Assembly (NCBI RefSeq): GCF_024171765.1 | Contig: NZ_JAMTCI010000001.1 | Location: 372,001 to 436,000 of the forward strand | From: Williamsia deligens | GTDB taxonomy: Bacteria; Actinomycetota; Actinomycetes; Mycobacteriales; Mycobacteriaceae | DNA: 64,000 bases | Direction of reading: 5' to 3' | Shown here: positions 9,944 through 21,801 of the stretch, piece by piece | How positions within the stretch are numbered: the stretch's first letter is position 1 | How the letters are laid out: each line of letters begins with the position of its first letter | Made by a program: the position numbers and the translations under genes | Notes under the pieces: model-generated | What the model was told of the DNA's origin: nothing | Seen by the model: only the letters and a program-made list of their open reading frames with translations | Databases searched by the model: none

Positions 9944-9990
9944 TTGGTGCCCTCGGCAGGATTCGAACCTGCGACCTACCCTTTAGGAGA
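9944..9990 (-). other. Attachment site, distal (partial tRNA-Arg copy)
   Basis: This 47-bp segment is identical to 21725-21771 and corresponds to the anticodon loop through the CCA end of tRNA-Arg(CCU). The identity breaks at 9991 and 9943. It lacks the 5' half of the tRNA and so is the truncated copy left by site-specific integration. Confidence 0.9.
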
Positions 9991-10325
9991 AGTGAGGTCG
10001 CGGCGTTCTCCGAGAGACGCCACCAGCGGCGATTGAGCGCGCCATTCGCGATTCGCGCAGGTCAAGGCCACTGACTGCACACCTGCGGCGCAGCGGCGGT
10101 TACCGGCTGCGCACCCCCGACAGTGCGCCGGTGGGTAGCACGGGGGTAGCACGGCACACACCGCCCACCGGTTGCCGCGCGCCCTGGTGCCCGGTCCGAC
10201 CCGGCCCGTAGCGTTGCAGCGGTAGCGCGCCGCTGTGCAGCGCCACGGCAGTACGCCCCTCGCGATGGAGTCGCGGGTCAGCCCCCGATTGGTAATCGGC
10301 ACCCGCCCGATCCATCGGAGAAACC
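9991..10325. promoter_or_regulatory. Element left end: integrase arm-like repeats, no gene seen
   Basis: This 335-bp stretch has no convincing coding region. It holds GCACCCCCGACA (10111-10122) and two tandem copies of GGGTAGCACG (10133-10142 and 10144-10153). The same motifs recur near the right end (21618-21670), as expected for arm-type binding sites of a lambda-type integrase. The ribosome site for the capsid-like gene (GGAGA, about 10317) is at its right edge. Confidence 0.5.
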
Positions 10326-11540
10326 ATGACCACCACACGCCCCGCCGACACTCGCCCTTCCTCCACCCGCCCGCTCGGCAGCGGTCCCGCTCGATCGGTG
10401 GCCGACGACGTGGCCTCGCTGTTCGCCTTCGGCGCCGACGCGCGCGGCTACAGCACCGAGGGCGATGTCCTCGTCAACCAGACCGCCGACGGCGTCGACC
10501 TGAACACGATCTGGGCTGAGGCGCAGACCGCGATGGGTCTGTGGAACCAGAAGCGCAGCGCCTTGGCTTCGCTCATCAGCTACCAGACGGTCAACAGCGG
10601 CGACGCCATCCCGCAGGTGATCGGCGGCGACCACTTCGAGAAGGCCAGCGAGTTCGGCGAGCCCACTGGCCTGCGCAGCGCGCCGGATGCGCTGCTACTT
10701 GGCTACGACTTCGACGACTTCGACCTGGCCAGCCGCATGAGCTGGAAGTTCCTGCGGTCGGCGTCGGCCGAGCAGGTGTACGCCATTATCAGCCGCGCGA
10801 TGGAGGCCGACAACCGGCTGGTGACTGGCACCATCCTCCGCCGCCTGTTCGACCCGGCCCAGGGCATCAACGAGTACGGCCAACCGGTCTACGGGCTGTA
10901 CAACGGCAGCGATGGCATGGTGCCCCCGCCCCACGCGGGGCAGGAGTTCCCCAGCAGCACGAGCCACTACCTGGTCAGCGGCAACACCGCCCTGGACCCC
11001 GGCGACCTGACAGATGCCATTACCCAGGTGCAGAGCAAGGGCTTCGGCACGACGCAGAACTCGCGACTGCTCGTGCTCGCACACCCGCACGAGGCGGAGG
11101 TGGCAGCGAGTTTCAGGGCCGGCGAGATCACCAACGGCGTCGAGAGCCGCTACGACTTCATCCCGTCAAGCTCGGCACCCGCCTACCTGACGCCGGACAA
11201 CGTTGTCGGTCAGGTGGCGCCGGGTGAGTTCGCCGGCCTGGAGGTGCTGGGGTCGTTCGGCCCGGCGTGGATCTGCCCCTCGTTCTACCTGCCGCAGGGG
11301 TACATCGCTGTCGTGGCAACCGGCGGACCCAACAGCAGCAACAACCCGGTGGCGGCGCGCCAGCACCCCAACCCGGCCTACCAGGGCCTGCGACAGATCC
11401 CCGGCAACGGTCCATATCCCCTCACCTCAAGTTTCTTCCAGCGATCCTTCGGAACCGGAGTTCGGTACCGGGGTGCGGCGTGCATCGTCCAGGTGAAGGC
11501 CAGCGGCCCGTACACCGCGCCGACATGGGCGTGGACGTGA
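10326..11540 (+). CDS. Phage major capsid-like protein
   Basis: A 404-residue protein with no signal peptide. It has a disordered N-terminus (first 25 residues), a helical region at 55-190 and a beta-rich C-terminal half. The C-terminal segments (GFGPAW-like turn, FYLPQGYIAVVATGG, SFFQRSFGTGVRYRGAA) match what I remember of capsid proteins annotated in actinobacterial phages and prophages, so I call it a probable HK97-fold major capsid. No prohead protease or portal is next to it. The ATG at 10326 follows a GGAGA site. It overlaps the next small gene by 4 bp. The alternative is another abundant virion protein. Confidence 0.62.
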   Translation: MTTTRPADTRPSSTRPLGSGPARSVADDVASLFAFGADARGYSTEGDVLVNQTADGVDLNTIWAEAQTAMGLWNQKRSALASLISYQTVNSGDAIPQVIGGDHFEKASEFGEPTGLRSAPDALLLGYDFDDFDLASRMSWKFLRSASAEQVYAIISRAMEADNRLVTGTILRRLFDPAQGINEYGQPVYGLYNGSDGMVPPPHAGQEFPSSTSHYLVSGNTALDPGDLTDAITQVQSKGFGTTQNSRLLVLAHPHEAEVAASFRAGEITNGVESRYDFIPSSSAPAYLTPDNVVGQVAPGEFAGLEVLGSFGPAWICPSFYLPQGYIAVVATGGPNSSNNPVAARQHPNPAYQGLRQIPGNGPYPLTSSFFQRSFGTGVRYRGAACIVQVKASGPYTAPTWAWT

Positions 11541-11731
11541 CCGCCCCCGATTACGGTCCGCAGGCCGGCGAGTTCAGCTGGGGACCGGGGAACGTGCCGC
11601 CGGGGTGTGAGGACGCGCCGATACGAGGGGGCGGCGCGTACCGAGGCACCACACCACCGGCGGCGCCGACGCCGGACCTGAGCGCCCTGGCCCGCGAGCT
11701 GGCCGACCGCCACACCGCCCGGGACGGCTGA
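11537..11731 (+). CDS. Small phage-type protein downstream of capsid gene
   Basis: A protein of 64 residues starting at GTG 11537, which overlaps the capsid stop (GTGA). An ATG at 11525 in the same frame would add four residues. It is rich in Gly, Pro and Ala, ends in an amphipathic helix (segment LSALARELADRH), and has no recognised domain. It is tightly packed between the capsid-like gene and the next small gene, so it is part of a structural cassette. Function unknown. Confidence 0.5.
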   Translation: MTAPDYGPQAGEFSWGPGNVPPGCEDAPIRGGGAYRGTTPPAAPTPDLSALARELADRHTARDG

Positions 11732-11732
11732 C

Positions 11733-12056
11733 GTGGCCCGCGCGTACCGCCGCGACGCCCGAGGTCGGTTCGCCGCCGCCGGGACGAAGATCAGCAACAG
11801 CTACGTCAGCGGCAGCTTCACCCGCAACCTGGCGGTGGGCCGGGGCGGTGCCTACAAGGGCGTGAAGGTCGGCGCCGAGTTCCGCACGCCCGCGGGCCGG
11901 GGCGCGGTGGTGAAGGGCATCGTCGGGTATCACGGCAAGCCCGATCGCCGCCTGGACATCACTCCCGGCCTAGACAAGTCCGCCAAGAAGGTGACGGTGT
12001 CAGCCCGCCCGAACCCATCGCGCCGCGCAGCCGCAGGACGGAAGCTCCGCAAGTAG
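11733..12056 (+). CDS. Small basic phage structural-like protein
   Basis: A 107-residue, strongly basic protein starting at GTG 11733, 1 bp after the previous stop. Its opening (MARAYRRDARGRFAAAG) is a pattern common in small virion-region proteins of actinophages. The Lys/Arg-rich C-terminal part (KKVTVSARPNPSRRAAAGRK) could bind DNA. No enzyme motif is seen. It is the last gene of the three-gene cassette and is followed by a strong hairpin. Confidence 0.55.
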   Translation: MARAYRRDARGRFAAAGTKISNSYVSGSFTRNLAVGRGGAYKGVKVGAEFRTPAGRGAVVKGIVGYHGKPDRRLDITPGLDKSAKKVTVSARPNPSRRAAAGRKLRK

Positions 12057-12135
12057 CCGACCGCAGACCTGTCGGCACTGCCCGCCCCAAGATCGCCGAG
12101 CCGCCGTACGCCACGAGACGACCGGCCCGGCAAAC

Positions 12136-12176
12136 CCAGAACCCCACCAGCGCCACCGACGCCGGTGGGGTTCTGG
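12136..12176. terminator. Hairpin between convergent structural cassette and repressor
   Basis: A perfect 13-bp stem (arms at 12136-12148 and 12164-12176) with a 15-nt loop sits between the end of the structural cassette and the end of the oppositely oriented repressor gene. There is no T-run on either side, but its position between convergent stops supports a bidirectional terminator. Confidence 0.65.
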
Positions 12177-12178
12177 CG

Positions 12179-12421
12179 CTATAGATCGATGCCGTCGAGT
12201 AGCGCCCCTGGCGTGGTCTGCAAACCAGCCGCGATCTTCAGTACGTTCTCAATACGAGAGCTGCGCTGCCCCCGTTCCACCTGGCCTAAGTGCGTCCAGT
12301 GCAGGCCAATCCGTTCCGCCGCCTGCTCCTGACTGAGATTGAGCTCGTGGCGACGAGCCCTCACCCTTGCGCCGAACACCGCCACGGCGCTGGTGGCTGC
12401 GGAGGCGGGCTGATCAGGCAT
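12179..12421 (-). CDS. XRE/Cro-CI-type HTH regulator
   Basis: An 80-residue protein that is almost entirely one helix-turn-helix domain: FGARVRARRHELNLSQEQ, then recognition-helix region IGLHWTHLGQVERGQ, ending with the helix PGALLDGIDL. It lacks the cleavable C-terminal domain of CI-type repressors, so induction would have to go through an antirepressor or a helper-phage protein. It is divergent from the lipoprotein gene across 121 bp and is the only obvious repressor of the element. Confidence 0.82.
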   Translation of the reverse strand: MPDQPASAATSAVAVFGARVRARRHELNLSQEQAAERIGLHWTHLGQVERGQRSSRIENVLKIAAGLQTTPGALLDGIDL

Positions 12422-12542
12422 GGCCCGCCTAGCACAATCGCCTCAACCGCAATCATCCAGAGCGGAAACGTCGTATTGCCACGCGGGCGCATTCGCACAT
12501 GGTTACGATTCGCCCGATTCGTCCGTTCGAAAGGAAGCCATC

Positions 12543-13058
12543 ATGCGTCGCGCGACCATCACCCCGCTCCTGCTCCTCTCCTTCACCCTTGTGGCGGGAT
12601 GCGGCAGCAGCGACGGTTCACCGAGTGCAGCAACCTCTACAGTCACGGTTTCCGCCGACGCCGGTTCTGCAGACCGCACCTCTGGCTCGACGTTTGACGT
12701 CAACACGGGCATCAGCGGAATCCGTAATCCTCCGTTTACGGGCGCTGACTGCGCCTACTACGACGGAACGTTGAGAAACGGCGACCCCGTAATCATTCGT
12801 GGTTCGGATGGGAGTGTGCTCGCGAAGACTGAGCTCATCAGCATGCCAGAAAACACCGGAGAGGCTGCCGGGCCGTACTGTGGTTTCCGCTTTTCGGCAA
12901 GCAATGTCAAGGCCGACGAACCCGCATACTCGCTGACCGTCGGCGGTTTTGCACCAGTGGTCGTCACGCAGGCCGAGCTCGTGTCCAGAGAATTCTTTAG
13001 CGCGCGTTCTCCGATAGATGTATTGGCCGAGAACGGGAAGGTGCCGCTTTCCAAGTAG
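12543..13058 (+). CDS. Element-encoded lipoprotein
   Basis: A 171-residue protein with signal peptide and lipobox LVAGC (Cys near residue 21), a Ser/Thr linker, then about 120 residues with two Cys (segments GADCAYYDG and GPYCGFRF) likely disulfide-bonded outside the cell. AAAGGAAG is placed correctly before the ATG, and a TACGAT (-10-like) hexamer lies at 12504-12509. Base composition is lower in GC than the flanking host genes. A lipoprotein next to the repressor is a common arrangement for superinfection exclusion in temperate phages. That role is inference; the fold is unrecognised. Confidence 0.75.
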   Translation: MRRATITPLLLLSFTLVAGCGSSDGSPSAATSTVTVSADAGSADRTSGSTFDVNTGISGIRNPPFTGADCAYYDGTLRNGDPVIIRGSDGSVLAKTELISMPENTGEAAGPYCGFRFSASNVKADEPAYSLTVGGFAPVVVTQAELVSREFFSARSPIDVLAENGKVPLSK

Positions 13059-13372
13059 GCCTTAAACGCACCCTGCTCACCCACGCACTTCGCTAACGAC
13101 CCGCGGGGATCAGATTGCATTTCGTTCGAAACCGCACTAAAGGCACTACTGCTGGCCCTGGTGTACCGTTGTTTACGCACGGGCTGCTTACCTGCAGCTC
13201 GAGACAAGTCCCGGGGCTTCGGTCACGGGCACTGTGAGTATCGGCCGAGCGACGCAGTGCATCGCGGGGTCGGCGTAGGGCTTATCGCGGTGCGATGGCG
13301 ACTCGCAGAGTTGTGGCAGTGAATGGTGCCGCGTTGAAGTTTGGCGCGGGCACCTAGCGGCGGAGCATCGCT
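13059..13372. other. Gene-poor stretch of the element
   Basis: No convincing coding region is seen in these 314 bp on either strand. The sequence is less GC-rich than its surroundings, with some AT-rich hexamers suitable for promoters (around 13165-13185). It presumably carries the promoter for the downstream xis-like gene or an untranslated leader. Confidence 0.4.
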
Positions 13373-13447
13373 AGCTGGCGCACAACGCACATACCCGAGA
13401 GGGTGCGTGCGTCGTGACGCCAGCTTTTTTGCGTTTCGGCGAACGCA
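13373..13447 (+). terminator. Strong intrinsic terminator/attenuator with tandem hairpin
   Basis: A long stem-loop has outer arms AGCTGGCG/CGCCAGCT (13373-13380 / 13418-13425) and middle arms 13381-13390 / 13407-13416 with one mismatch. An inner ACCC/GGGT pair closes it, and a T6 run follows at 13425-13430. A second hairpin, TGCGTT/AACGCA (13430-13447), comes right after. It lies about 30 bp before the xis-like gene on the same strand, which suggests attenuation of that gene or protection from read-through. Confidence 0.7.
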
Positions 13448-13473
13448 CCTCGACCACACCGAGGAGCAACACC

Positions 13474-13752
13474 GTGAGTACCGCACCCACCCGACCGCCG
13501 GTTGCCCGACCTGTGCCCGGGCCGACCCAGCTGAACGACCTGCCCACCGTCAAGGGCCGCGACGGCGCCGTCGAGTTTCTGAACCGCACCCTCGGCGTAC
13601 CCATCACCCCGACGCGCATGCGAGCAGCGATCGAACGCCGCGAGCTGCCCGTCTACAAGATCAGTGGCAACAACTACCTGACCGAGCGGGACCTCTACCT
13701 GTGGGTGAAGAGCCTGGCTCGGCCCGTCGCCACCCAGGGCGGTGCCGCGTGA
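13474..13752 (+). CDS. AlpA/excisionase-like HTH protein
   Basis: A 92-residue protein. Residues 30-80 have the MerR/Xis-like winged-helix pattern: a short helix, TPTRMRAAIERRELPVYKIS and a beta turn, then YLTERDLYLWVKSL. This family includes phage excisionases and P4 AlpA-type activators of excision. The GTG at 13474 follows GAGGAG and is preferred over an earlier in-frame ATG at 13414, because the latter lies within the terminator hairpin. Its stop overlaps the next start (GTGA), so the two are coupled. Confidence 0.68.
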   Translation: MSTAPTRPPVARPVPGPTQLNDLPTVKGRDGAVEFLNRTLGVPITPTRMRAAIERRELPVYKISGNNYLTERDLYLWVKSLARPVATQGGAA

Positions 13753-14474
13753 CCACCATGGACCCCAACGGCCTCATCATCGAGGCTGACGACGCACTGA
13801 CGTCCATCCACACCCGCTCGGTCATCAGAGGCCTTAAGCGCGCCGACGCCTACGGTTCGCCGGCGGTCGCCACCTCCGACGAGCTACGGCAGGCGGTCCG
13901 GACCGCCGCCGACCGAGCTCGCGCGGCCGAGCCGCTCCGATGCGTGAAACGTGTAGACGACGTGGTTCGCTTCCTCCTCGAACACCACGGCTTCGACGTC
14001 GCCTGGTTGACGCGGAAGGCTCCGCCGCCGGGCCTGACGATCTGCCACGTCGCACATCCCGGTGCTGAGTGGCTGACGTGGGTACTGCCAGACGGCACCG
14101 ACAACGTCGGTGCGATCTGCTTCGAACTGCTCGGCGTCGTTGCGCGTCACCACGAGATGGTCGAACGACGGACGCCACCGCCTGAGGCCACGGAGGAGTT
14201 CGAGGCCGGGCAGTTCGGCTACCAACACTGCGACTGGTGCCACCAGGACGTGTCGGCCACTCACTCGGTTTGGGACATGCGGGTGCTGCTGATGAGTCAA
14301 GGCAACCGGCTGTTCGCATGGATCTGCTGCGCCGACTGCTCGACGAGGTTGGAGGGGTCGCATCCCGGCGGTCTGCGCTGGATGCCTCAACCGCCTGCAC
14401 CCCGGCGCGCCGTGTTGGGCGTTCCCGGACGCCTGACGCGCCCACTGCGGGCTGTGCACCCCTGCCGCCGGTAA
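13749..14474 (+). CDS. Zinc-ribbon protein of unknown function
   Basis: A 241-residue protein starting at GTG 13749, overlapping the xis-like stop by 4 bp. Residues 1-130 are helical, with no recognised fold. Residues 155-205 hold a probable Cys4 zinc ribbon (CDWC ... CCADC). The C-terminal 40 residues are Pro/Arg-rich. Located between the regulatory gene and the replication gene, it may be a DNA- or RNA-binding accessory factor. I do not recognise the family. Confidence 0.55.
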   Translation: MTTMDPNGLIIEADDALTSIHTRSVIRGLKRADAYGSPAVATSDELRQAVRTAADRARAAEPLRCVKRVDDVVRFLLEHHGFDVAWLTRKAPPPGLTICHVAHPGAEWLTWVLPDGTDNVGAICFELLGVVARHHEMVERRTPPPEATEEFEAGQFGYQHCDWCHQDVSATHSVWDMRVLLMSQGNRLFAWICCADCSTRLEGSHPGGLRWMPQPPAPRRAVLGVPGRLTRPLRAVHPCRR

Positions 14475-14577
14475 CTGCGGCGGGGGTGCGCGGGTCAACC
14501 CGCCTGCGGGGCGCCGGTGGCGCCTCGCCTGAGCTTCATCCCCGCTGTGGTGCGGCGGTGACCCGACCAAAAAAGAA

Positions 14578-14613
14578 CGCCGGTCCATCAGTCACCAACT
14601 GAATGAACCGGCG
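14578..14613 (-). terminator. Inverted repeat upstream of the primase gene
   Basis: Imperfect arms (14578-14592 / 14598-14613; seven outer pairs perfect) form a hairpin. On the minus strand it is followed by a T-rich run (complement of the A6 at 14569-14574), which is the form of an intrinsic terminator for leftward transcripts. Nothing is annotated leftward here, so it could instead be an operator or an antisense block. Confidence 0.45.
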
Positions 14614-14644
14614 CTCCCCACGTTCAGCCAAGGAGTCTGGCCGC

Positions 14645-16983
14645 ATGGCCCAGGATACACCACCACTACATCCAACGATGTTGCAGCCGAACGATTCTCG
14701 AATAGATTCCGGGGTTCCGACGTCGATCCCCGACGTGGCCGGTCTGTCCCTCCGCGAAGCGGCCTTGGCCTACGCCGAGGCCGGATGGTTCGTGTTCCCG
14801 CTCATCCCGGGCGCGAAGGGGCAGCCGGTGGTGAAGTTCTCAACGGAGTCCACTCGCGATCCTGCGCAGATCGCACGGTGGTGGGACGAGGACCCCGACC
14901 GCGGTATCGGCGGACACGTAGGTCGAAGCGGCGCCGTGGCGTTCGACTTGGACAACGCCCGCCTTGACGAGCTCCCCGCCGCCATCGCCCAGGGTCTGCG
15001 CAGCGGTCGTGTGCAGCTGAGCCGGCGAGACAACCCCGACCGAGGGCACTACGTGTTCGCGGCCGAGCCCGGTGCGTTCGGTAACGGGGCGGGTGCGTTC
15101 CGGCCGTTCGGGGAGGTTCGCGGCAAGAACGGATTCATCGTTCTCGCGCCGACCCCGCATGTGAAGGACGACGGCGAATATCGGTGGGTGCAGCCGGGGC
15201 CGCTGCCGCCCCTACCGGAGGCTCTACGGGCGTGCCTTTCAACGGTGACGGCGGAAGAAGTTGAGCCGCTTACCAACGAGCAGTTCGACGCGTTCGTGGC
15301 CAACCCGGACCACCAGCGGTCGGAACGCACCGGGGCGTTGGACGGGATCCTTGCGAAATTCGAGAAGGACGTTCGAAGCGGTGTCAGTAGCCATGAGGCG
15401 CTGATTGACGCGTTGCCCTGGGCGTTCCGCGAGGTCCGGGTCGGCCTATATCCCGCCGAGGAGGCCGTGCGACGAATCCAATCGGCGTTCCTTGATTCGT
15501 TCACGTGGGAGGGTCGCAACCCCGACGGCCGGACACGGCCGACAGGCGACGAGTTCTACCGTGCCGCCACCTGGGCGGCGGCGCGGGCCATGCAGGCGGA
15601 CCCCGCCGAGATCCTCGAACGGGTGAACCGGAACGGCGCCGCTGCGGTGGCGGTCGACGAAGAGGCGTTCTGGACGGCACGCCCCGAGCTGGAGCAGCTA
15701 AGGGTGTTCGCGCGGTCTCGGCGAGTGGGGCCGTGGGCCATGTTCGGCGTGGTTTTGGCGCGGGCGCTGGCGACGGTGCCGCCGTCGGTTGTGCTGCCGC
15801 CGCTGCGCGGAGGACACGGCAGCCTGAACTTCTTCGCGGCGATCGTCGCGCCGTCGGGCAAAGGCAAGGGCACCGCCGAGGCCGCCGCCGAGGAGGCGCT
15901 GATCACAACCCTGAGGTGTACGCGGCCACCTTGGGTAGCGGTGAGGGCATACCGAAGGAGTTCGCCTACAAGAAGCGCGCCGAGCAAATCGACGTGCGCA
16001 ATTCGGTGCTGTACTCCGCGCCCGAGATCGACTCGATAGCGGCGTTGAAAGGCCGCAGCGGATCAACGCTCCTACCGGAGACGCGAAAGGCGTTCTCGGG
16101 TGAGCGACTAGGTTTCGGGTACGCGGCCGACGACAAGAAGTTCGCCATTCACAAGCACCGCTACCGCATGACGATGACGGTCGGCGTGCAACCGGGGCGA
16201 TCGGTCACGCTGTTCGAGGACGCCGACGGTGGCACCCCGCAGCGGTTCGCGTTCTTCCCGACGACGGACTCCGACGCCCCCAAGCGAGCCCCCGCCGAGC
16301 CCGAACCGGTGAAGCTGCCACGATGGCCGACCGGGCTGCTGGTGACCGACGGGCGAACGCTCATTGGCGAACGCGACGCCGACGGCGAAGCGACCATCGC
16401 GATAGAGCCAGGTGATCTCCGTCTGTCCGTGCCTGCACAGCACGACGATTTCCACGTCTTGGGCGTGCCGCAGTCGGTCCGTGACGAGGTGGACGCGGAG
16501 GCGCTGAGCAATCTGCGAGGCGACCACGGCCACACCCTGGACAGCCACGGCCTGTTCCTGCGGATGAAGATCGCCGCCGGACTGATGTGGCTGAACGGCC
16601 GGACCGACGCCATCACCGAGGAGGACTGGCACCTGGCGGGGATAGTGATCGCTGTAAGCGATCGCACGCGCACCGAGACCGTGCAGGTGCTCCGTCAGCA
16701 GGCGTCTGCAGTGAGCCAGTCGCGCGGCCGGGCCGAGGGCGAACGCGAGATCGCCAAGGCAGAGGTGGTCGAGGATCGTCGGCTAAAGCGGGCGATAGAC
16801 AACGTGCGCAGACACGTCGAGGATGCGGGCCGACTGACCCGGAAAGAGCTGCGCAGCAGGCTGAAGAACGATCTGCGCGAGCATCTGGACGAGGCCGTCG
16901 ACAGGCTGGTGGCGGCGGGTGTGGTGGGCCGCGAGGACGGCGACCAGGGCGGGTACGCGGTCGTGTTCAAGGCCGTGCGATGA
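14645..16983 (+). pseudogene. Prim-pol/helicase replication protein, broken by one frameshift
   Basis: Two overlapping frames form one gene of about 780 codons. The N-terminal part (from ATG 14645, AAGGAG at 14629) is a bifunctional primase-polymerase domain, with AALAYAEAGWFVFPL, the acidic FDLDN motif and a downstream His (segment PDRGHYVF). Near 15855 comes a Walker-A-like APSGKGKG that starts a DUF3987/helicase-type ATPase. The frame breaks at 15905-15907; restoring one C there joins LIT to NPEVYAATLGSGEG and reads on to 16983. The C-terminal part ends in a helical, winged-helix-like segment. No slippery heptamer is seen, so this is a mutation or a sequencing error rather than obvious programmed frameshifting. 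It would initiate replication of the element. Confidence 0.75.
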
Positions 16984-17108
16984 CCGCCGACAATGCCACC
17001 CGCAGGGGGAGTACAGGGGGTACGCGTACTCCCCCTCGCCCGCAAAAGCGGGCGCCGCCGCGCTGTGAAACACCAGGTAGAAGAGGAAATTACCAATCGC
17101 GGGTATAG
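16980..17108 (+). CDS. Possible tiny ORF across the repeat region
   Basis: A 42-codon frame begins with ATGA overlapping the primase-gene stop and runs through the first palindrome. It is Arg/Pro-rich, and its composition is imposed by the repeats, so it may well not be translated. It is listed because of the exact ATGA overlap. Confidence 0.2.
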   Translation: MTADNATRRGSTGGTRTPPRPQKRAPPRCETPGRRGNYQSRV

Positions 17109-17154
17109 GGCAAATCGCGGCGGGGGGAGTACACGTACCCCCCGTACTCCCCCC
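17004..17154. repeat. GTAC-C5 palindrome cluster, candidate replication origin
   Basis: Two 33-bp units have the same design. Each has an 11-bp perfect inverted repeat (AGGGGGAGTAC/GTACTCCCCCT at 17004-17014 and 17026-17036; GGGGGGAGTAC/GTACTCCCCCC at 17122-17132 and 17144-17154) with an 11-bp spacer. The spacer carries a third GTAC-C5 copy, pointing left in the first unit and right in the second. Between the units lie a 7-bp hairpin with an AAAA loop (17037-17054) and a less GC-rich stretch (about 17065-17110). Repeats directly behind a primase/helicase gene fit iterons. Confidence 0.65.
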
Positions 17155-17177
17155 TCCCGCTCAAGCAGGAGATCACC

Positions 17178-17912
17178 ATGAACGACCCCACCCAATCGCA
17201 AGCACCCGCCCCGGCGGAGGAGGTTCTGTTCCCGATCGACCGCCCTGAGTTCGACACCGCCGCGCCGGACCCATCGAAGGAGGTGGAGAAGGAAGCCGAG
17301 TTCGACATGCGTTGGCAGGACGGGCGACAACCGCCCCGGCAGTGCAGCGCGCACCGCACCAACGGCGAACCGTGCAGGCGGGCGGCGATTAACGGCGGCA
17401 ACGTGTGCGGCACCCACGGTGGACGCAGCCCACAGGTAAAGGCCAAGGCGCGTGTGCGCCTGGAGATGGCCGCCGACCGAGTGGCGAAAGAGCTGCTGCA
17501 TATCGCTACCGACGACGCCTCGCCTCCGGCGGTGAAGTTGGCGGCGATCAAGGATGCGCTGGACCGCGCAGGCGTGAGCGCCAAGACCACCGTGGAAGTG
17601 GAACCGGGCGCGCGATTCCAGGAGGTGCTGGACGTGGTGCTCGCTGGCGGACCGCGAGGCGCCGCCGGCAAGGCCGGCGATCCCGACCGCGAGTGGATTG
17701 CGCAGGAGCTGAACATCATCAACGCCGAGGTGGTGGACGACGGACCCGCCCACCCAGCGCCACCGCGCCCCGAGGCCGCACAGCTCGAGGCCCCGGCCCC
17801 ACCGCCAAATGGATCGGGTCTGCTGTCGATGGAGGACGCCCTGGAGCAGTTGCACGCCACCAACCCACCGCCCGCGCCGCCCGCAGCCCGCCGCCGCAGG
17901 GGCCGTTCGTAG
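17178..17912 (+). CDS. Terminase-small-like zinc-knuckle phage protein
   Basis: A 244-residue protein. Residues 55-85 contain a CxA..CxxxA..CxxHGG cluster (Cys at the segments RQCSAHR, EPCRR, NVCGTHGG). This pattern is found in proteins placed in the small-terminase position of actinophages. It is followed by a helical stretch (KAKARVRLEMAADRVAKEL) and a Pro/Ala-rich C-terminal tail. The Cys3-His set probably binds zinc and DNA. CAGGAG precedes the ATG. If it is a small terminase it could redirect a helper phage's packaging to this element, the classic satellite strategy. That role is inferred. Confidence 0.55.
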   Translation: MNDPTQSQAPAPAEEVLFPIDRPEFDTAAPDPSKEVEKEAEFDMRWQDGRQPPRQCSAHRTNGEPCRRAAINGGNVCGTHGGRSPQVKAKARVRLEMAADRVAKELLHIATDDASPPAVKLAAIKDALDRAGVSAKTTVEVEPGARFQEVLDVVLAGGPRGAAGKAGDPDREWIAQELNIINAEVVDDGPAHPAPPRPEAAQLEAPAPPPNGSGLLSMEDALEQLHATNPPPAPPAARRRRGRS

Positions 17913-18131
17913 GCCCCTGGTGGGCACACACGCGGCCCCGCACCCGGCCGGGCGCACCCGCACACCCGGCGGGCAGCTCAACGCCACGCAGATGCTCAAA
18001 GCGGTTGCGAGAGAACAGCTATCGAGTAGTGACGTGCATCACACCGCCGTAGGGTGGTGCTTGGTTTACATACACGGCTGCACCGCAGGTGGCACGAGTT
18101 CGGCGGTCAGCGACGACACAAGGAGTGGGCA
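17913..18131. promoter_or_regulatory. Leader region of the recombinase genes
   Basis: These 219 bp separate the terminase-small-like gene from the serine recombinase. Nothing coding is supported. The right part (18000-18120) is less GC-rich and holds the ribosome site AAGGAG at about 18120, so a promoter for the recombinase operon is likely here. No clear operator is seen. Confidence 0.35.
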
Positions 18132-18833
18132 GTGAAACTAGCTGCATACCTGCGCTGCTCAAGCGCACGACAGCAAGAAGCGTTCGGCCCCGAGGTACAA
18201 CGGCAGGCAATTCGACAGTGGGCCAGAGCGAACGGCCACCGCATCGTCAGTTGGCACGAGGACACCATCTCCGGTACGAGCGAGCTGAAAGACAGGGCCG
18301 GGTGGATGCAGGCCGAGGCAGCTGTGAAGTCCGGCGCCGCGCAGGGCATCGTCGTGCCCCGGCTGGACAGACTTGCTCGCGACGTCATGATTCAGGAGCT
18401 CCTGCTCCGCAAGACACCCGGCGTGGTGCTCTCCGCGCGCGACAGCGAGAACGAACTACTCACCGGCACCACCAACGACCCCAGCCGCAAGCTGATCCGC
18501 ACGATCCTGGGGGCCATCGCCGAATACGACCGCGAGATGATCACCGACCGCCTGGTCGCCTCGCGGCACGCCAAGGCAGCCGCAGGCGGGTACGCACACG
18601 GCGGTCTGCCCTACGGGTTCGCCAGCAAGAACGGCAACCTAGTTCCGGTCGCGGCCGAGCAGCGCGCGCTCGCCCTGATACGCAGTCTCTCGGCTCAGGG
18701 TGTCGGCACCCGTGAGATCGCGCGGGTACTTACCGCCGAAGGCCACCCCACCAAGCGCGGCGGTGAATGGTGCAGCAGCACCGTGGCTCGAATCCTCAAG
18801 CGGGATCAGACGCGCGCGAGCGAGGCAGCCTGA
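18132..18833 (+). CDS. Serine recombinase (resolvase/invertase type)
   Basis: A 233-residue small serine recombinase. The N-terminal catalytic domain starts LAAYLRCSS (catalytic Ser in the RCSS segment) and has DRLARD near residues 80-85, plus a helix E region around AEYDREMITDRL. The C-terminal domain (about 160-230) is a resolvase HTH ending in WCSSTVARILKRD. GTG 18132 is chosen because AAGGAG lies 7 bp upstream. It lacks the large C-terminal domain of phage serine integrases, so it is more likely a resolvase or invertase than the integrase. Its stop overlaps the tyrosine integrase start (TGATG). Confidence 0.85.
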   Translation: MKLAAYLRCSSARQQEAFGPEVQRQAIRQWARANGHRIVSWHEDTISGTSELKDRAGWMQAEAAVKSGAAQGIVVPRLDRLARDVMIQELLLRKTPGVVLSARDSENELLTGTTNDPSRKLIRTILGAIAEYDREMITDRLVASRHAKAAAGGYAHGGLPYGFASKNGNLVPVAAEQRALALIRSLSAQGVGTREIARVLTAEGHPTKRGGEWCSSTVARILKRDQTRASEAA

Positions 18834-20281
18834 TGGCCTGGATCAAGGCATACGAAACCGCCGCTCGCCAGCGCGGTAAGCCGGTGAAGACCTACAAGGT
18901 GATCTGGAAGGAGGTGGAGCGCGACGCCTACGGCCTGCCCCTGCCTGCCGACCCCGCGAAACCCGAGGGGCGCAAGCGCACCCGCAACCGACAGGAGAGC
19001 TTCCCCACCCGCGAGGCAGCCGAGGCCCGGCGCGACGAGCTGAACGCCGCCCGCCATACCGGCACTACCGCCGCCCTGGCCGACCAGCGGAAGGCCGGCG
19101 ATCTCCCGTTCGGCTACCACGCGCGCGAGCTGTTCTCCGCGATGCACGGCACGGTTAAGCCCCGCACGGTGGAGAAGGCCGAGGGCGTGTACCGCCGCTA
19201 CTTGGCTGACGCTTTCGGCGAGCGCGCTATCGCCACCATCACCGCTGCCGACGTAAGGCACTTCCGCAGCGCGATGCTGGCACCCCGGCCACGCCGCAGC
19301 TACGACACTCGCTCCGACAGCGCCGCGCAACCGACCAACCCCGACGGCACGCCGCAAACCGTTGTGTTGAAACACGGCACCGTGAAAGAGGCCTACGACG
19401 TACTGCGGCGCATCTTCGATGTGGCCGTGGTGGACGGCGCCATCAAGGCCAACCCGGTGCATTCGGTGCCGCTCCCCCGGCAGTCGGCCACGGCGCGCAC
19501 CTCGGGGCAGGAAGCAGCGGCCGACTTCGCCCCGCAACCCCTCAGCGGGCCGCAGGTAGCGGGCGTGGCGCACCACATCGGCACAGTTCAGCTCCAGCCG
19601 GCGTATGCCCTGGCGGTTACGTTCAGCGCGTACACGGGCCTGCGGGCAGGAGAGCTACGTGGCCTGGAGATCGGGGATGTCACGCTGCCCCGCACACCCG
19701 GCGCGATGGGCATGGTGGCGGTGTCTCGCACCAAGACTCGGCGGGGCGGGCAGTGGGCGGTGGGCACGCCTAAGTCGGTGCGCAGCACCCGCGTGGTGCC
19801 AATAGACGCGTGGCTGGCCGACGACCTGCGCGCGTACTTGGCTCGGCATCCACTGCGGCTGAACCCTTCGGCGCCGCTCTTCCCGGGCCGCATGACCCGC
19901 GCCGAGGCCAAAGCGGCGGGCGTACGGCAGAGCGATCTGGCGGCGGGCCTGAATGGCGAGGCCATCGCGAACACCTACAAGTGGACCGAGCCGATGGATA
20001 CCAGCAACGTGGCGCGGAACTACTACGCCCCGGCCATGGCCGCGTGTGGCCTGCCGCCCGCCCGCTGGCATGACCTGCGGCATACGTTCGCCGTACTGTC
20101 CCTCTCGGCCGGCGAGCACTACATGCAGGTGAGCAAGTGGCTGGGCCACGCCAGCTACGTCACCACGCTCACCGTCTACGCCGACTACATCTCCGAAGCC
20201 GAGGGCGGAAAAGCCGCGCCACTCAGTCGTCCGTTGGCGACGGTTGGTGGTCCGGCTCGGCAGGTGACGGCACTTCTGTAG
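18833..20281 (+). CDS. int: Tyrosine recombinase (integrase)
   Basis: A 482-residue phage-type integrase. The N-terminal arm-binding/AP2-like region is at 1-75, the SAM-like core-binding domain at 85-190 and the catalytic domain at about 250-470. The catalytic set is visible: Arg in YTGLRAGELRGLE, Lys in SRTKTRRG, HxxR in HDLRHTFAVL, His in WLGHASYVTT and the nucleophile Tyr in VYADYISE. It most likely catalyses integration at tRNA-Arg(CCU), whose 3' half is the core site; the gene lies about 1.4 kb from that site. Its 3' end overlaps the opposing cargo gene by 59 bp. Confidence 0.93.
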   Translation: MAWIKAYETAARQRGKPVKTYKVIWKEVERDAYGLPLPADPAKPEGRKRTRNRQESFPTREAAEARRDELNAARHTGTTAALADQRKAGDLPFGYHARELFSAMHGTVKPRTVEKAEGVYRRYLADAFGERAIATITAADVRHFRSAMLAPRPRRSYDTRSDSAAQPTNPDGTPQTVVLKHGTVKEAYDVLRRIFDVAVVDGAIKANPVHSVPLPRQSATARTSGQEAAADFAPQPLSGPQVAGVAHHIGTVQLQPAYALAVTFSAYTGLRAGELRGLEIGDVTLPRTPGAMGMVAVSRTKTRRGGQWAVGTPKSVRSTRVVPIDAWLADDLRAYLARHPLRLNPSAPLFPGRMTRAEAKAAGVRQSDLAAGLNGEAIANTYKWTEPMDTSNVARNYYAPAMAACGLPPARWHDLRHTFAVLSLSAGEHYMQVSKWLGHASYVTTLTVYADYISEAEGGKAAPLSRPLATVGGPARQVTALL

Positions 20282-21110
20282 CTGTTTCGTCTACTGCCCG
20301 GTCTTCTGGTCGCTGGAATAAGCTGTCGGCCCATTCGCGAGTGCGACGCGACTCTTCGGCCCGCTCGCGTGCCTCCGCTTGTCTATGGTCGCGTTCTTTG
20401 TCAGCGTCGGCTAGATATACCCACACGCCATTGTGCTCGCTACGAGAAAAGGCCTGAACAGTTGTTGCGATCTTTGCGATTTGATCCGCCGTCGAATCCA
20501 GTCGACGGTCCAAGATCTTTGCAACGTCGTGGATGGTCTTCTGGTCTACTCTGCGCGTGTCTTTCAGCATGTTGAAGTTCAGGTCCACAGGCGACGAATA
20601 CCGGTCGTAGTCGCGAGAAAATGGCTTGTACCAGTGCTGGCGCTTTTTGCGATCACCCCGGTAGCTGATGTGCCCCACGTGCCTACTACGAATGTTTTCA
20701 AGACCGAGACGACTCGGCGCGTGATCCCAGAGTGCTCGCCATTCCTGAAACGGTGCGAGTATTGGGACTACCTGCGGGATAGCTACCGTCGTAATGTCGG
20801 CACCTTCGTAATCCGGGCTCACCTCCGGCGGCGTGTCTAGATGAACCTCAATGTCGTAGGCGGGCGTCTGACCGAAGTTTTTGATAACTAGCTCTAGAAA
20901 TTGCCAATCTGCGGCCATCGGCTCGGAGTACATGACTACAGTCGGCTGCGCCTGCTCATCACGAGTGAGCCTAGCCTCGCGAACTTGCCGAAGCGCGAAC
21001 GCTGCCGCGACGACCGCGACGCCGACGGCTGCCCACGTTCCGATAGCCGACCAGTTGTCAGACGTGAGTGACCACATACCGTTCCATGCGTCGCGAATTA
21101 GAGCCATCAC
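20223..21110 (-). CDS. Membrane-anchored cargo protein of unknown function
   Basis: A 295-residue protein with one N-terminal transmembrane helix (about 22-42, segment TWAAVGVAVVAAAFAL) and a short basic linker. A beta-sandwich-like domain follows (VVMYSEP ... FLELVIKNFGQTPAYDIEVHL), with a charged helical C-terminus (residues 235-280). The layout resembles a widespread but uncharacterised family in actinobacterial genomic islands. It starts inside the stop of the upstream partner gene (ATGA overlap) and reads toward the integrase. Its composition is less GC-rich than host genes. Lying beside the integrase, it is in the usual place for cargo such as phage-defence or exclusion genes, but no defence motif is seen. 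Confidence 0.65.
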   Translation of the reverse strand: MMALIRDAWNGMWSLTSDNWSAIGTWAAVGVAVVAAAFALRQVREARLTRDEQAQPTVVMYSEPMAADWQFLELVIKNFGQTPAYDIEVHLDTPPEVSPDYEGADITTVAIPQVVPILAPFQEWRALWDHAPSRLGLENIRSRHVGHISYRGDRKKRQHWYKPFSRDYDRYSSPVDLNFNMLKDTRRVDQKTIHDVAKILDRRLDSTADQIAKIATTVQAFSRSEHNGVWVYLADADKERDHRQAEARERAEESRRTREWADSLFQRPEDRAVDETATEVPSPAEPDHQPSPTDD

Positions 21111-21601
21111 GACCGCCCGAGCGTCCAGCCGGTAACCGCCTGGATCTTGACGCGAAGGAAGTCGAAGTGAACGGGCGCAGGTGAGTAGCAGGTCACGTCC
21201 GACAGGTGGATGAAACCTGGCATACCCGATCCATTGAGATCAGTAGTTTCCTCGTTCTCGCCACCGTCACTCCGGCGTTGCGATTCTTCACGGCGCTTCT
21301 TCATCTGTTCACGCCATTTCTCGAACCACTGAGAATGCGCTGTAGCAAGAGCCCGAGCGCCATCCTCGAGGTCATCCGGAATCATGCCCTGAGCGGTCGA
21401 AAATCCCCACTCGAAGTATGACTCCGCGGAATTGATTAGCCCCGATGCACGGCCCCACGGCATGAAAAGAGTCACTGCGAAGCCGATGCCGAAGTCGTTG
21501 GCGCTATCGGCCATAATTTGCAGCGACCAGTCCGGGGCTGCGAACCAGTCAGACGTATTGGTAAGGGCCGGTAGCGGCGCAGGCTGTGTTGGCTCGGTCA
21601 C
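21107..21601 (-). CDS. Partner cargo protein of unknown function
   Basis: A 164-residue protein with no signal peptide. A hydrophobic patch at about 35-50 (segment DFGIGFAVTLFMPWG) is too short and interrupted for a sure membrane helix. A strongly charged region is at 95-120, and a C-terminal beta-rich part ends RVKIQAVTGWTLGRS. It is the first gene of a two-gene operon with the membrane-anchored protein (4-bp overlap). Family unrecognised. Its promoter must lie in the 120 bp next to the tRNA, where the integrase arm-like repeats also sit. Confidence 0.6.
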   Translation of the reverse strand: MTEPTQPAPLPALTNTSDWFAAPDWSLQIMADSANDFGIGFAVTLFMPWGRASGLINSAESYFEWGFSTAQGMIPDDLEDGARALATAHSQWFEKWREQMKKRREESQRRSDGGENEETTDLNGSGMPGFIHLSDVTCYSPAPVHFDFLRVKIQAVTGWTLGRS

Positions 21602-21617
21602 TCGTAGATAGTCTCAT

Positions 21618-21670
21618 GCACCCCCGACACGAACCGGTTGCGCGTGTTGGGTAGCACGGGGGTTGCATGG
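21618..21670. promoter_or_regulatory. Element right end: arm-like repeats
   Basis: GCACCCCCGACA (21618-21629), GGGTAGCACG (21649-21658) and a degenerate second copy GGGTTGCATG (21660-21669) repeat the motifs found at 10111-10153. Same orientation and same order at both element ends support integrase or Xis arm sites. They overlap the probable promoter of the cargo operon. Confidence 0.5.
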
Positions 21671-21724
21671 ACCACCGTCCGCCTTACTTCCGGAGGGCCG
21701 ATTTGCGCGTCTAGCTGGTCATTC

Positions 21725-21771
21725 TTGGTGCCCTCGGCAGGATTCGAACCTGCGACCTACCCTTTAGGAGA
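21725..21771 (-). other. Attachment site, tRNA-proximal
   Basis: A 47-bp core identical to 9944-9990. Here it is part of the complete tRNA-Arg(CCU), running from the anticodon loop through the CCA end plus one base. The element carries this copy so that the tRNA gene stays functional after integration. Confidence 0.9.
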
Positions 21772-21801
21772 GGGTTGCTCTATCCCCTGAGCTACGAAGG
21801 C
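21726..21801 (-). tRNA. tRNA-Arg (anticodon CCU)
   Basis: A 76-nt cloverleaf on the minus strand. The acceptor stem GCCUUCG pairs with CGAGGGC. The D arm is GCUC...GAGC, the anticodon arm ACCCU-CUCCUAA-AGGGU has anticodon CCU, the T arm contains GGUUCGAAUCC, and CCA is encoded. It reads the AGG codon and is the integration target. The upstream MFS gene on the same strand reads 45 nt into it. Confidence 0.95.

Follow-up and report, generated by a model that had tools for sequence, protein, structure and literature searches.

The insertion in tRNA-Arg(CCT) and its genes

The stretch of Williamsia deligens DNA analyzed here, called the window, covers 64,000 nucleotides (bases 372,001–436,000 of contig 1 in a nine-contig, 4.41-Mb genome) and contains an 11.8-kb island with a phage-type capsid gene, inserted in tRNA-Arg(CCT). 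The island lies between two perfect 47-bp direct repeats, the right one of which is the 3′ part of the tRNA gene, the sole tRNA gene found in the window. A first-pass annotation made from the sequence letters had taken these repeats as the exact ends of the island, which was upheld: the two copies are identical, and one of them is within tRNA-Arg(CCT). The joined flanks were compared with eight genomes from the genus, one of them the window's own. In the congener G062, they align as one piece (3,344 columns, 79%) with one tRNA-Arg(CCT) and with 46 of the 47 core positions matched, so an empty site of the kind expected in sister strains is present and its junction does not contradict the ends. 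The flanks in G044, G107, and G120 are approximately 360–650 bases apart around the tRNA, with no island between them; those in G079, G018, and G094 were too diverged or only partly found for an empty-site call, and in G079 a separate island occupies tRNA-Gly(CCC). The site in the window is a real insertion. Just inside both ends of the island are 28-bp repeats, which are presumed to be arm sites of the integrase (Table 1).

The genes are arranged in the order capsid, orfB, orfC, a repressor-like gene on the opposite strand, a possible lipoprotein gene, an AlpA-like gene, orfG, a primase-polymerase (prim-pol) gene in two frames, a gene for a TerS-like (small terminase-like) protein, a serine recombinase gene with the tyrosine integrase gene adjoining it, and two minus-strand cargo genes. 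The capsid, prim-pol, repressor, and two recombinases named in the first-pass annotation were all recovered as matches to PHROG 3990, PF09250, HTH_3, Resolvase, and Phage_integrase. The TerS-like and AlpA-like proteins proposed there fared less clearly: their library matches are weak, yet both are conserved families among the relatives. When orfB and orfC were compared with the genes beside phage capsids, only marginal matches came up, and no such tie is claimed. For the cargo genes M and N, PADLOC gave nothing convincing, and the Pfam, PHROG, and NCBIfam scans gave no function. As the annotation had also stated, a portal, large terminase (TerL), protease, or tail gene was not found in the island, nor was a scaffold gene, by Pfam, PHROG, and NCBIfam scans, probe searches, and phage models; connectors were sought by probe searches, and the other head and tail genes by family models too.

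Table 1. Features of the island, with positions in the window
Feature	Position	Strand	Evidence
attL (left attachment site), left 47-bp repeat	9944-9990	.	identical to 21725-21771; G062 empty site matches core 46/47
28-bp repeat just inside attL, candidate integrase arm site	10132-10159	.	86% copy at 21648-21675
Major capsid protein, HK97-type, Patience/Adjutor family	10326-11540	+	PHROG 3990 E 4.3e-98; PDB 8saj, 8giu
orfB, small conserved protein after capsid	11525-11731	+	present in 32/56 genome loci
orfC, small basic conserved protein	11733-12056	+	present in 12/56 genome loci
Helix-turn-helix (HTH) regulator, repressor-like	12179-12421	-	HTH_3 E 5.3e-11
Possible lipoprotein, cargo	12543-13058	+	no confident library family; judged from sequence only
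AlpA/Xis-like small protein	13474-13752	+	excisionase phrog_1840 E 0.087 (weak); family in 18/23 loci
orfG	13749-14474	+	G079 relative, 49%
Prim-pol N-terminal part, first frame	14645-15902	+	Prim-Pol PF09250 E 6.2e-24; phrog_10729 E 1.9e-48
Prim-pol C-terminal part, other frame	15910-16983	+	phrog_28894 E 3e-48; single frame in G161, G020, G138
Candidate replication origin, GTAC-centred inverted repeats	16984-17177	.	6 motif hits; fold z -6.7
TerS-like protein, CCCH/HGG motif, assignment probable	17178-17912	+	viral homologues upstream of TerL; 44/56 genome loci
Small serine recombinase	18132-18833	+	Resolvase E 3.3e-24; 46/56 genome loci
Tyrosine integrase	18833-20281	+	Phage_integrase E 2e-8; 42/56 genome loci
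Cargo gene M	20223-21110	-	phrog_9607 E 1.8e-14; relatives in G092, G112, G161
Cargo gene N	21107-21601	-	two relatives within G194 island
28-bp repeat just inside attR, candidate integrase arm site	21648-21675	.	86% copy of 10132-10159
attR (right attachment site), right 47-bp repeat within tRNA-Arg	21725-21771	.	identical to 9944-9990
tRNA-Arg(CCT), target left intact	21726-21801	-	tRNA gene call

The prim-pol gene of this copy is split into two reading frames that meet near 15,902–15,912, a break on which the first-pass annotation was silent. Three relatives have the gene in one frame (Table 1), and it is also in two pieces in G200. The break in the window is either a mutation or an assembly error; if the assembly is right, the broken frame may have left this copy unable to replicate on its own, and the element may for now be stranded. 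Strong inverted repeats centred on GTAC separate the prim-pol gene from the TerS-like gene; the motif has no hits elsewhere in the island, and the repeats are a candidate replication origin of the window island. GTAC repeats were also seen 3′ of prim-pol in the loci L112 and L118. As a family-wide origin they are not supported, since 44 of 50 loci are without the motif after prim-pol and the motif was derived post hoc from the window.

A capsid lineage across actinobacterial genera

The window capsid matches the major head protein family PHROG 3990 and has no match in Pfam or NCBIfam. By sequence, its only solved relatives are the capsids of the Mycobacterium phages Adjutor (8saj, E 2.6e-79) and Patience (8giu, E 2.3e-72), and the same two were the best Foldseek matches of a predicted capsid model (mean predicted local distance difference test score, pLDDT, 71). 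The two phages are described as having heads of triangulation number T=7, genomes of 64.5 and 70.5 kb, split hexamers, and a metal site (PMC10635136). The window capsid is matched by 153 phage records, all below 60% identity with the best at approximately 44.5%; its identity is about 38–45% to the capsids of candidate helpers and 43–76% to 21 aligned relatives.

A capsid match was found in 28 of 201 genomes of the family, the window's own included, and in 9 of 394 genomes drawn from the class. Two overlapping sets of 56 and 29 genome loci, partly the same loci, were compared. The 56 loci come from Gordonia, Tsukamurella, Williamsia, Rhodococcus, Nocardia, Dietzia, Aldersonia, Hoyosella, and Lolliginicoccus, with many from Mycobacterium, and the more distant ones from Micromonospora, Demequina, Quadrisphaera, Rathayibacter, Microbacterium, and others. 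A bounded island was defined by a repeat of at least 18 nt overlapping a tRNA gene, loci without such a repeat being uncounted; by this definition, 29 loci are bounded and represent 25 distinct islands (four were seen twice) at tRNA genes for Gly, Leu, Lys, Met, Cys, and Arg. Their median size is approximately 12.4 kb, and they range from 6.1 kb (G171) to 16.0 kb (G053, whose island includes a 1.3-kb internal duplication). Only a few of the genes are left in G045, G171, and G177.

The genes found beside the capsid are largely those of the window. Among 23 loci chosen for having the capsid, the serine recombinase was present in 20, the tyrosine integrase in 19, prim-pol (of two types) in 19, the AlpA-like protein in 18, and the TerS-like protein in 14. 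In the 56 loci, prim-pol was present in 45 and the AlpA-like protein in 35 (the other counts are in Table 1), and the tyrosine integrase, serine recombinase, TerS-like protein, and prim-pol occur all together in 24. The capsid module is found in both orientations, since the serine recombinase is on the capsid strand in 22 of 46 loci and on the other strand in 24.

Other arrangements were observed as well. Five loci from Demequina, Cryobacterium, Rathayibacter, and Microbacterium (L135, L137, L141, L144, and L148) have a second layout, in which the TerS-like gene follows the capsid at 1.5–1.7 kb and a tyrosine integrase was not detected. The G020 locus (L054, L055) has three tRNA-Gly repeat copies and pieces of a second integrase, and probably consists of tandem elements, one of them decayed. 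Contig C289 of G187 carries two different family members, with capsids approximately 86 kb apart in one genome. Four loci, L248 (G170), L249 and L250 (G119), and L252 (G187), have the integrase and serine recombinase with no capsid hit, and three of the four have the TerS-like gene; tRNA-Arg(CCT) is near L248.

A tree was calculated from 133 distinct full-length capsids, excluding fragments and identical copies. The 61 capsids labeled as satellite were those of the genome loci plus the IMG/VR contigs L151 and L152, and the remaining 72 were labeled as phage. Sixty of the 61 genome-side capsids form one group, with a support of 100 in the Shimodaira–Hasegawa-like approximate likelihood ratio test (SH-aLRT). 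The sole exception, L147, from an Intrasporangiaceae metagenome-assembled genome, has a long branch and was placed among the phages in the free tree; constraining all 61 as one clade was not rejected (approximately unbiased test, p-AU 0.657), and the constrained tree was 14.2 log units better. L151, on which no phage structural gene was seen, has almost the same capsid as locus L108 of Mycobacterium scrofulaceum.

The ratio of nonsynonymous to synonymous substitution rates (dN/dS) of the capsid has a median of 0.18 and a maximum of 0.31 in 53 pairs, which indicates that the genome-borne capsids are under purifying selection; the values are 0.17 for the TerS-like protein (4 pairs), 0.19 for the integrase (52 pairs), and 0.12 for the serine recombinase (62 pairs), the pairs not being independent. 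Two residues of the Patience/Adjutor metal site are replaced in the window capsid, His198 by Thr and His224 by Lys. Of the 61 genome-side capsids, 27 retain His198 and 28 retain His224, compared with 64 and 65 of the 72 phage capsids; these counts refuted metal-site loss as a mark of the whole lineage.

Satellite, prophage remnant, or other element

Phage modules were sought with models derived from the phages Suzy, P3.1, and Kurnik with one extension round; they covered the head and packaging proteins TerL, portal, protease, and scaffold, together with the major tail protein and the tape measure. They detected none of these genes in any of the 56 or of the 29 genome loci. The same models matched 78 of 80 IMG/VR contigs (retained out of 173 in an alignment scan), and the two without any match are L151 and L152. 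The peptide patterns used on the genome collection were almost those used on IMG/VR, so the scan is capable of finding phages. An IMG/VR scan with the window capsid as a single protein found no relatives, although the alignment scan did find them. Head, packaging, and tail families were also absent from a PHROG scan of 97 of the 104 non-core proteins of 17 islands, judged in its second part from the best 25 of 53 families; three proteins of G067 and four spanning a joint were excluded, and the set was without six loci (G088, G089, G056, G171, G140, and the window). One non-core protein, from G079, is an HNH endonuclease. The window island thus has an incomplete virion gene set and is a discrete integrated element of its own lineage, as is typical of satellites, and the preference of the first-pass annotation for a satellite over a decayed prophage survived the search for relatives with portal, terminase, and tail modules.

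Judged from its genes, the island probably belongs to a widespread actinobacterial family of integrated phage satellites that depend on a helper and supply the capsid protein themselves. The helper that it presumably uses should be a Patience-type phage, because a capsid that comes without scaffold and protease genes would be expected to rely on those of a close relative, and the helpers are probably mostly lytic, since no phage module lies beside this capsid in the 56 genome loci. A Patience/Adjutor-type phage would infect the cell and induce the island, which would excise and replicate with its own prim-pol from the nearby origin. The TerS-like protein, where present, would direct the large terminase of the helper onto satellite DNA. 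The satellite capsid protein would co-assemble with the helper scaffold, protease, and portal into whole or mixed shells, as proposed by analogy with the Ccm protein of SaPIbov5, and the helper tail would deliver the particle. The cargo end would bring genes of benefit to the host, including anti-phage defence in some relatives. The satellite capsid might do any of three things: form pentamers, form whole shells, or merely disturb the helper.

The TerS assignment is probable where the gene is present and is not universal. The CCCH/HGG motif characterizes the family, and in viral loci all 10 hits of its model at E≤0.01 were at most 3.5 kb upstream of TerL, with none elsewhere; some adjoin TerL and others are up to 3 kb off. 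The best E-value in a reversed-sequence control was 0.66. Two of the 10 hits, in the loci L214 and L215, may come from one phage, because these loci have the same capsid. Across the 201 family genomes, where presence was scored at E≤1e-15, 16 carry the TerS-like gene, and 15 of these also carry the capsid. This position upstream of TerL has to be set against missing annotations and absences of the gene, which is why the assignment is held as probable only.

Those absences are among several points that weigh against the satellite reading. The TerS-like gene is missing at the same threshold from 13 of the 28 capsid-positive genomes, including the otherwise complete islands of G040, G092, G161, and G200. 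Only 10 of 44 TerL-bearing viral loci gave a TerS-like hit (27 of the 44 have at least 0.9 kb upstream), and in Nicole72 the homologue is approximately 6.6 kb from TerL if the record ends are joined. Of the 25 phage records matching the window TerS-like protein, none is annotated as a terminase and none is from a Gordonia or Mycobacterium phage. In a structure search, the best named TerS was a weak match at E 0.046, from a model with a pLDDT of 70 and a predicted template modelling score (pTM) of 0.37. Integrase relatives without a capsid were found in 4 of 19 integrase-positive genomes; the eight such loci fetched have neither capsid nor phage genes, some of them being cut by contig ends. The prim-pol of the window copy is broken. 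A small T number does not follow cleanly from genome size, since 12.4 kb fits none tightly if T=7 holds 64–70 kb. Finally, the island is known from its sequence, from which we infer the helper, excision, packaging, and particle.

A more specific form of the satellite reading can be proposed tentatively, and we consider it possible while giving it somewhat less than even chances. One ancient capture would have founded a satellite lineage now spread across many actinobacterial genera, whose shell protein was taken from Patience-type lytic phages, as was the small terminase of most members. The lineage would build a satellite-specific shell, whole or in its pentamers only, on the helper scaffold, protease, and portal. 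The two metal-site residues by the split hexamers, replaced in about half of the lineage and in the window, would fit a changed capsid geometry.

It is also conceivable, though rather unlikely, that the capsid serves as a weapon of interference which poisons or mis-sizes the helper heads, with the satellite DNA being carried by normal helper particles, for instance in concatemeric form. This would agree with the lack in the island of a scaffold, protease, or portal to go with the capsid. Concatemers are what we take phage-inducible chromosomal minimalist islands (PICMIs) to package. PICMIs are described as managing without capsid remodelling (PMC10803314), and five copies of 12.4 kb make 62 kb, which is near the 64.5–70.5 kb of Adjutor and Patience (PMC10635136). 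However, the capsid is conserved at full length, the matched domain having a median of 370 aa on the genome side and 371 aa in phages, as would be expected of a subunit that still assembles.

A decayed prophage, in which a temperate phage integrated, lost its terminase, portal, and tail, and left the capsid by chance, is strongly disfavoured, and we regard it as very improbable. The homology of the capsid to phage capsids, the broken prim-pol frame, and the fragmentation of capsids in some relatives (e.g., G177 and G097) are what such decay would leave. However, a similar gene set and size recur across the 25 bounded islands, apart from the three reduced ones, and no prophage module adjoins the capsid in the 56 genome loci. 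The capsid lineage is separate from the 72 sampled phage capsids and is under purifying selection; thus, the capsid is neither nested among complete phages or prophages nor under relaxed selection, as it would be in a prophage remnant.

Least probable of all is an integrative element that is not transferred by phages and holds phage genes as domesticated cargo, such as an encapsulin-like compartment: encapsulins were among the weaker Foldseek matches of the capsid model, but phage capsids were by far the best, a phage-type TerS-like gene is often linked, and no relaxase or conjugation family was matched by Pfam among the 15 island proteins scanned.

The window's own genome (G000) also has a phage-like contig of 20.7 kb, C6 (L244), with small and large terminases, portal, protease, scaffold, a capsid of another type (PHROG 10), major tail protein, and RecT. 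A negative result with PF03354 for a large terminase of the host was set aside as uninformative, since this model missed the TerL on contig C6.

Known satellites and the cargo of relatives

Phage-inducible chromosomal islands (PICIs) have an integrase and a primase-type replication gene within approximately 8–15 kb, an AlpA/Stl-type regulator, and TerS or another packaging gene. The window island resembles them in having an integrase and a primase-type gene within this size, although the prim-pol frame is broken here. The regulator and packaging traits may be supplied by the AlpA-like and TerS-like proteins, as judged from weak library hits, conservation, and position, the TerS-like protein being absent from some islands.

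The first-pass annotation suggested that this combination of genes may be undescribed, which holds in part. Candidate PICIs of Mycobacterium with an integrase and a major capsid protein, some at tRNA genes and some with helicase and terminase, were reported in 2023 along with phiRv1 and phiRv2 (PMC10654092); because of these, the island is only partly new, and it belongs to an already reported kind of element, as a new form. Like the island, those candidates combine integrase and capsid, and their tyrosine-integrase forms are at tRNA genes; many relatives found here are Mycobacterium loci. By the description in the portion of that report used here, however, they are defined by integrase and capsid only, with diverse capsids, no common core, and no helper type, and come from Mycobacterium genomes only (PMC10654092). 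A common capsid lineage across genera and its link to Patience-type phages were not found in the open-licence literature, as far as the portions used here extend.

In SaPIbov5, the pentamers of a T=4 procapsid are made of the capsid-protein homologue Ccm, the sole satellite protein found in the small heads (PMC8569155), which shows such an arrangement to be workable. The window island is similar in that a satellite would supply a homologue of the helper capsid protein while the other head parts come from the helper. By description (PMC8569155), Ccm is 24% identical to the helper protein, as against the 38–45% of the window capsid with candidate helpers. Capsid-forming PICIs (cf-PICIs) likewise are integrated elements with their own capsid protein, but they also have protease, portal, connectors, and large terminase (PMC10690885), none of which was found in the window island. 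The Streptomyces satellites MulchRoom and MiniFlayer share an actinobacterial host, their own capsid, and, as proposed for the island, virulent helpers; unlike the window island, they are described as having large terminase, portal, and scaffold genes and no recognised primase (PMC10690885), whereas the island has a prim-pol and lacks those three genes. Patience/Adjutor-type phages have the same capsid family but are complete T=7 phages of 64.5–70.5 kb (PMC10635136).

With these comparisons, a loose class of integrase-and-capsid regions in mycobacteria becomes a defined lineage, and for its candidate helper group solved capsid structures are available. The differences between satellite and helper capsids can now be compared residue by residue, and satellites of lytic actinobacteriophages kept in laboratories can be sought. 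If the satellite reading is true, the lineage would be a second independent case, beside Ccm of SaPIbov5, of a capsid protein taken over without other head genes.

The integrase end of the islands varies in cargo. Among the relatives, G200 carries a type II restriction-modification pair, G092 a protein like PD-T7-4, and G040 and G086 DUF4062 proteins, of which that of G086 is just under the Pfam cut-off and has a PADLOC hit. PADLOC was run on 10 proteins of the relatives, five of which gave hits at E≤0.001 (one of them weak) and five none. In the G200 island, an EcoRI-type methyltransferase and a GmrSD/HNH endonuclease are encoded at the integrase end (L067:5283-7639).

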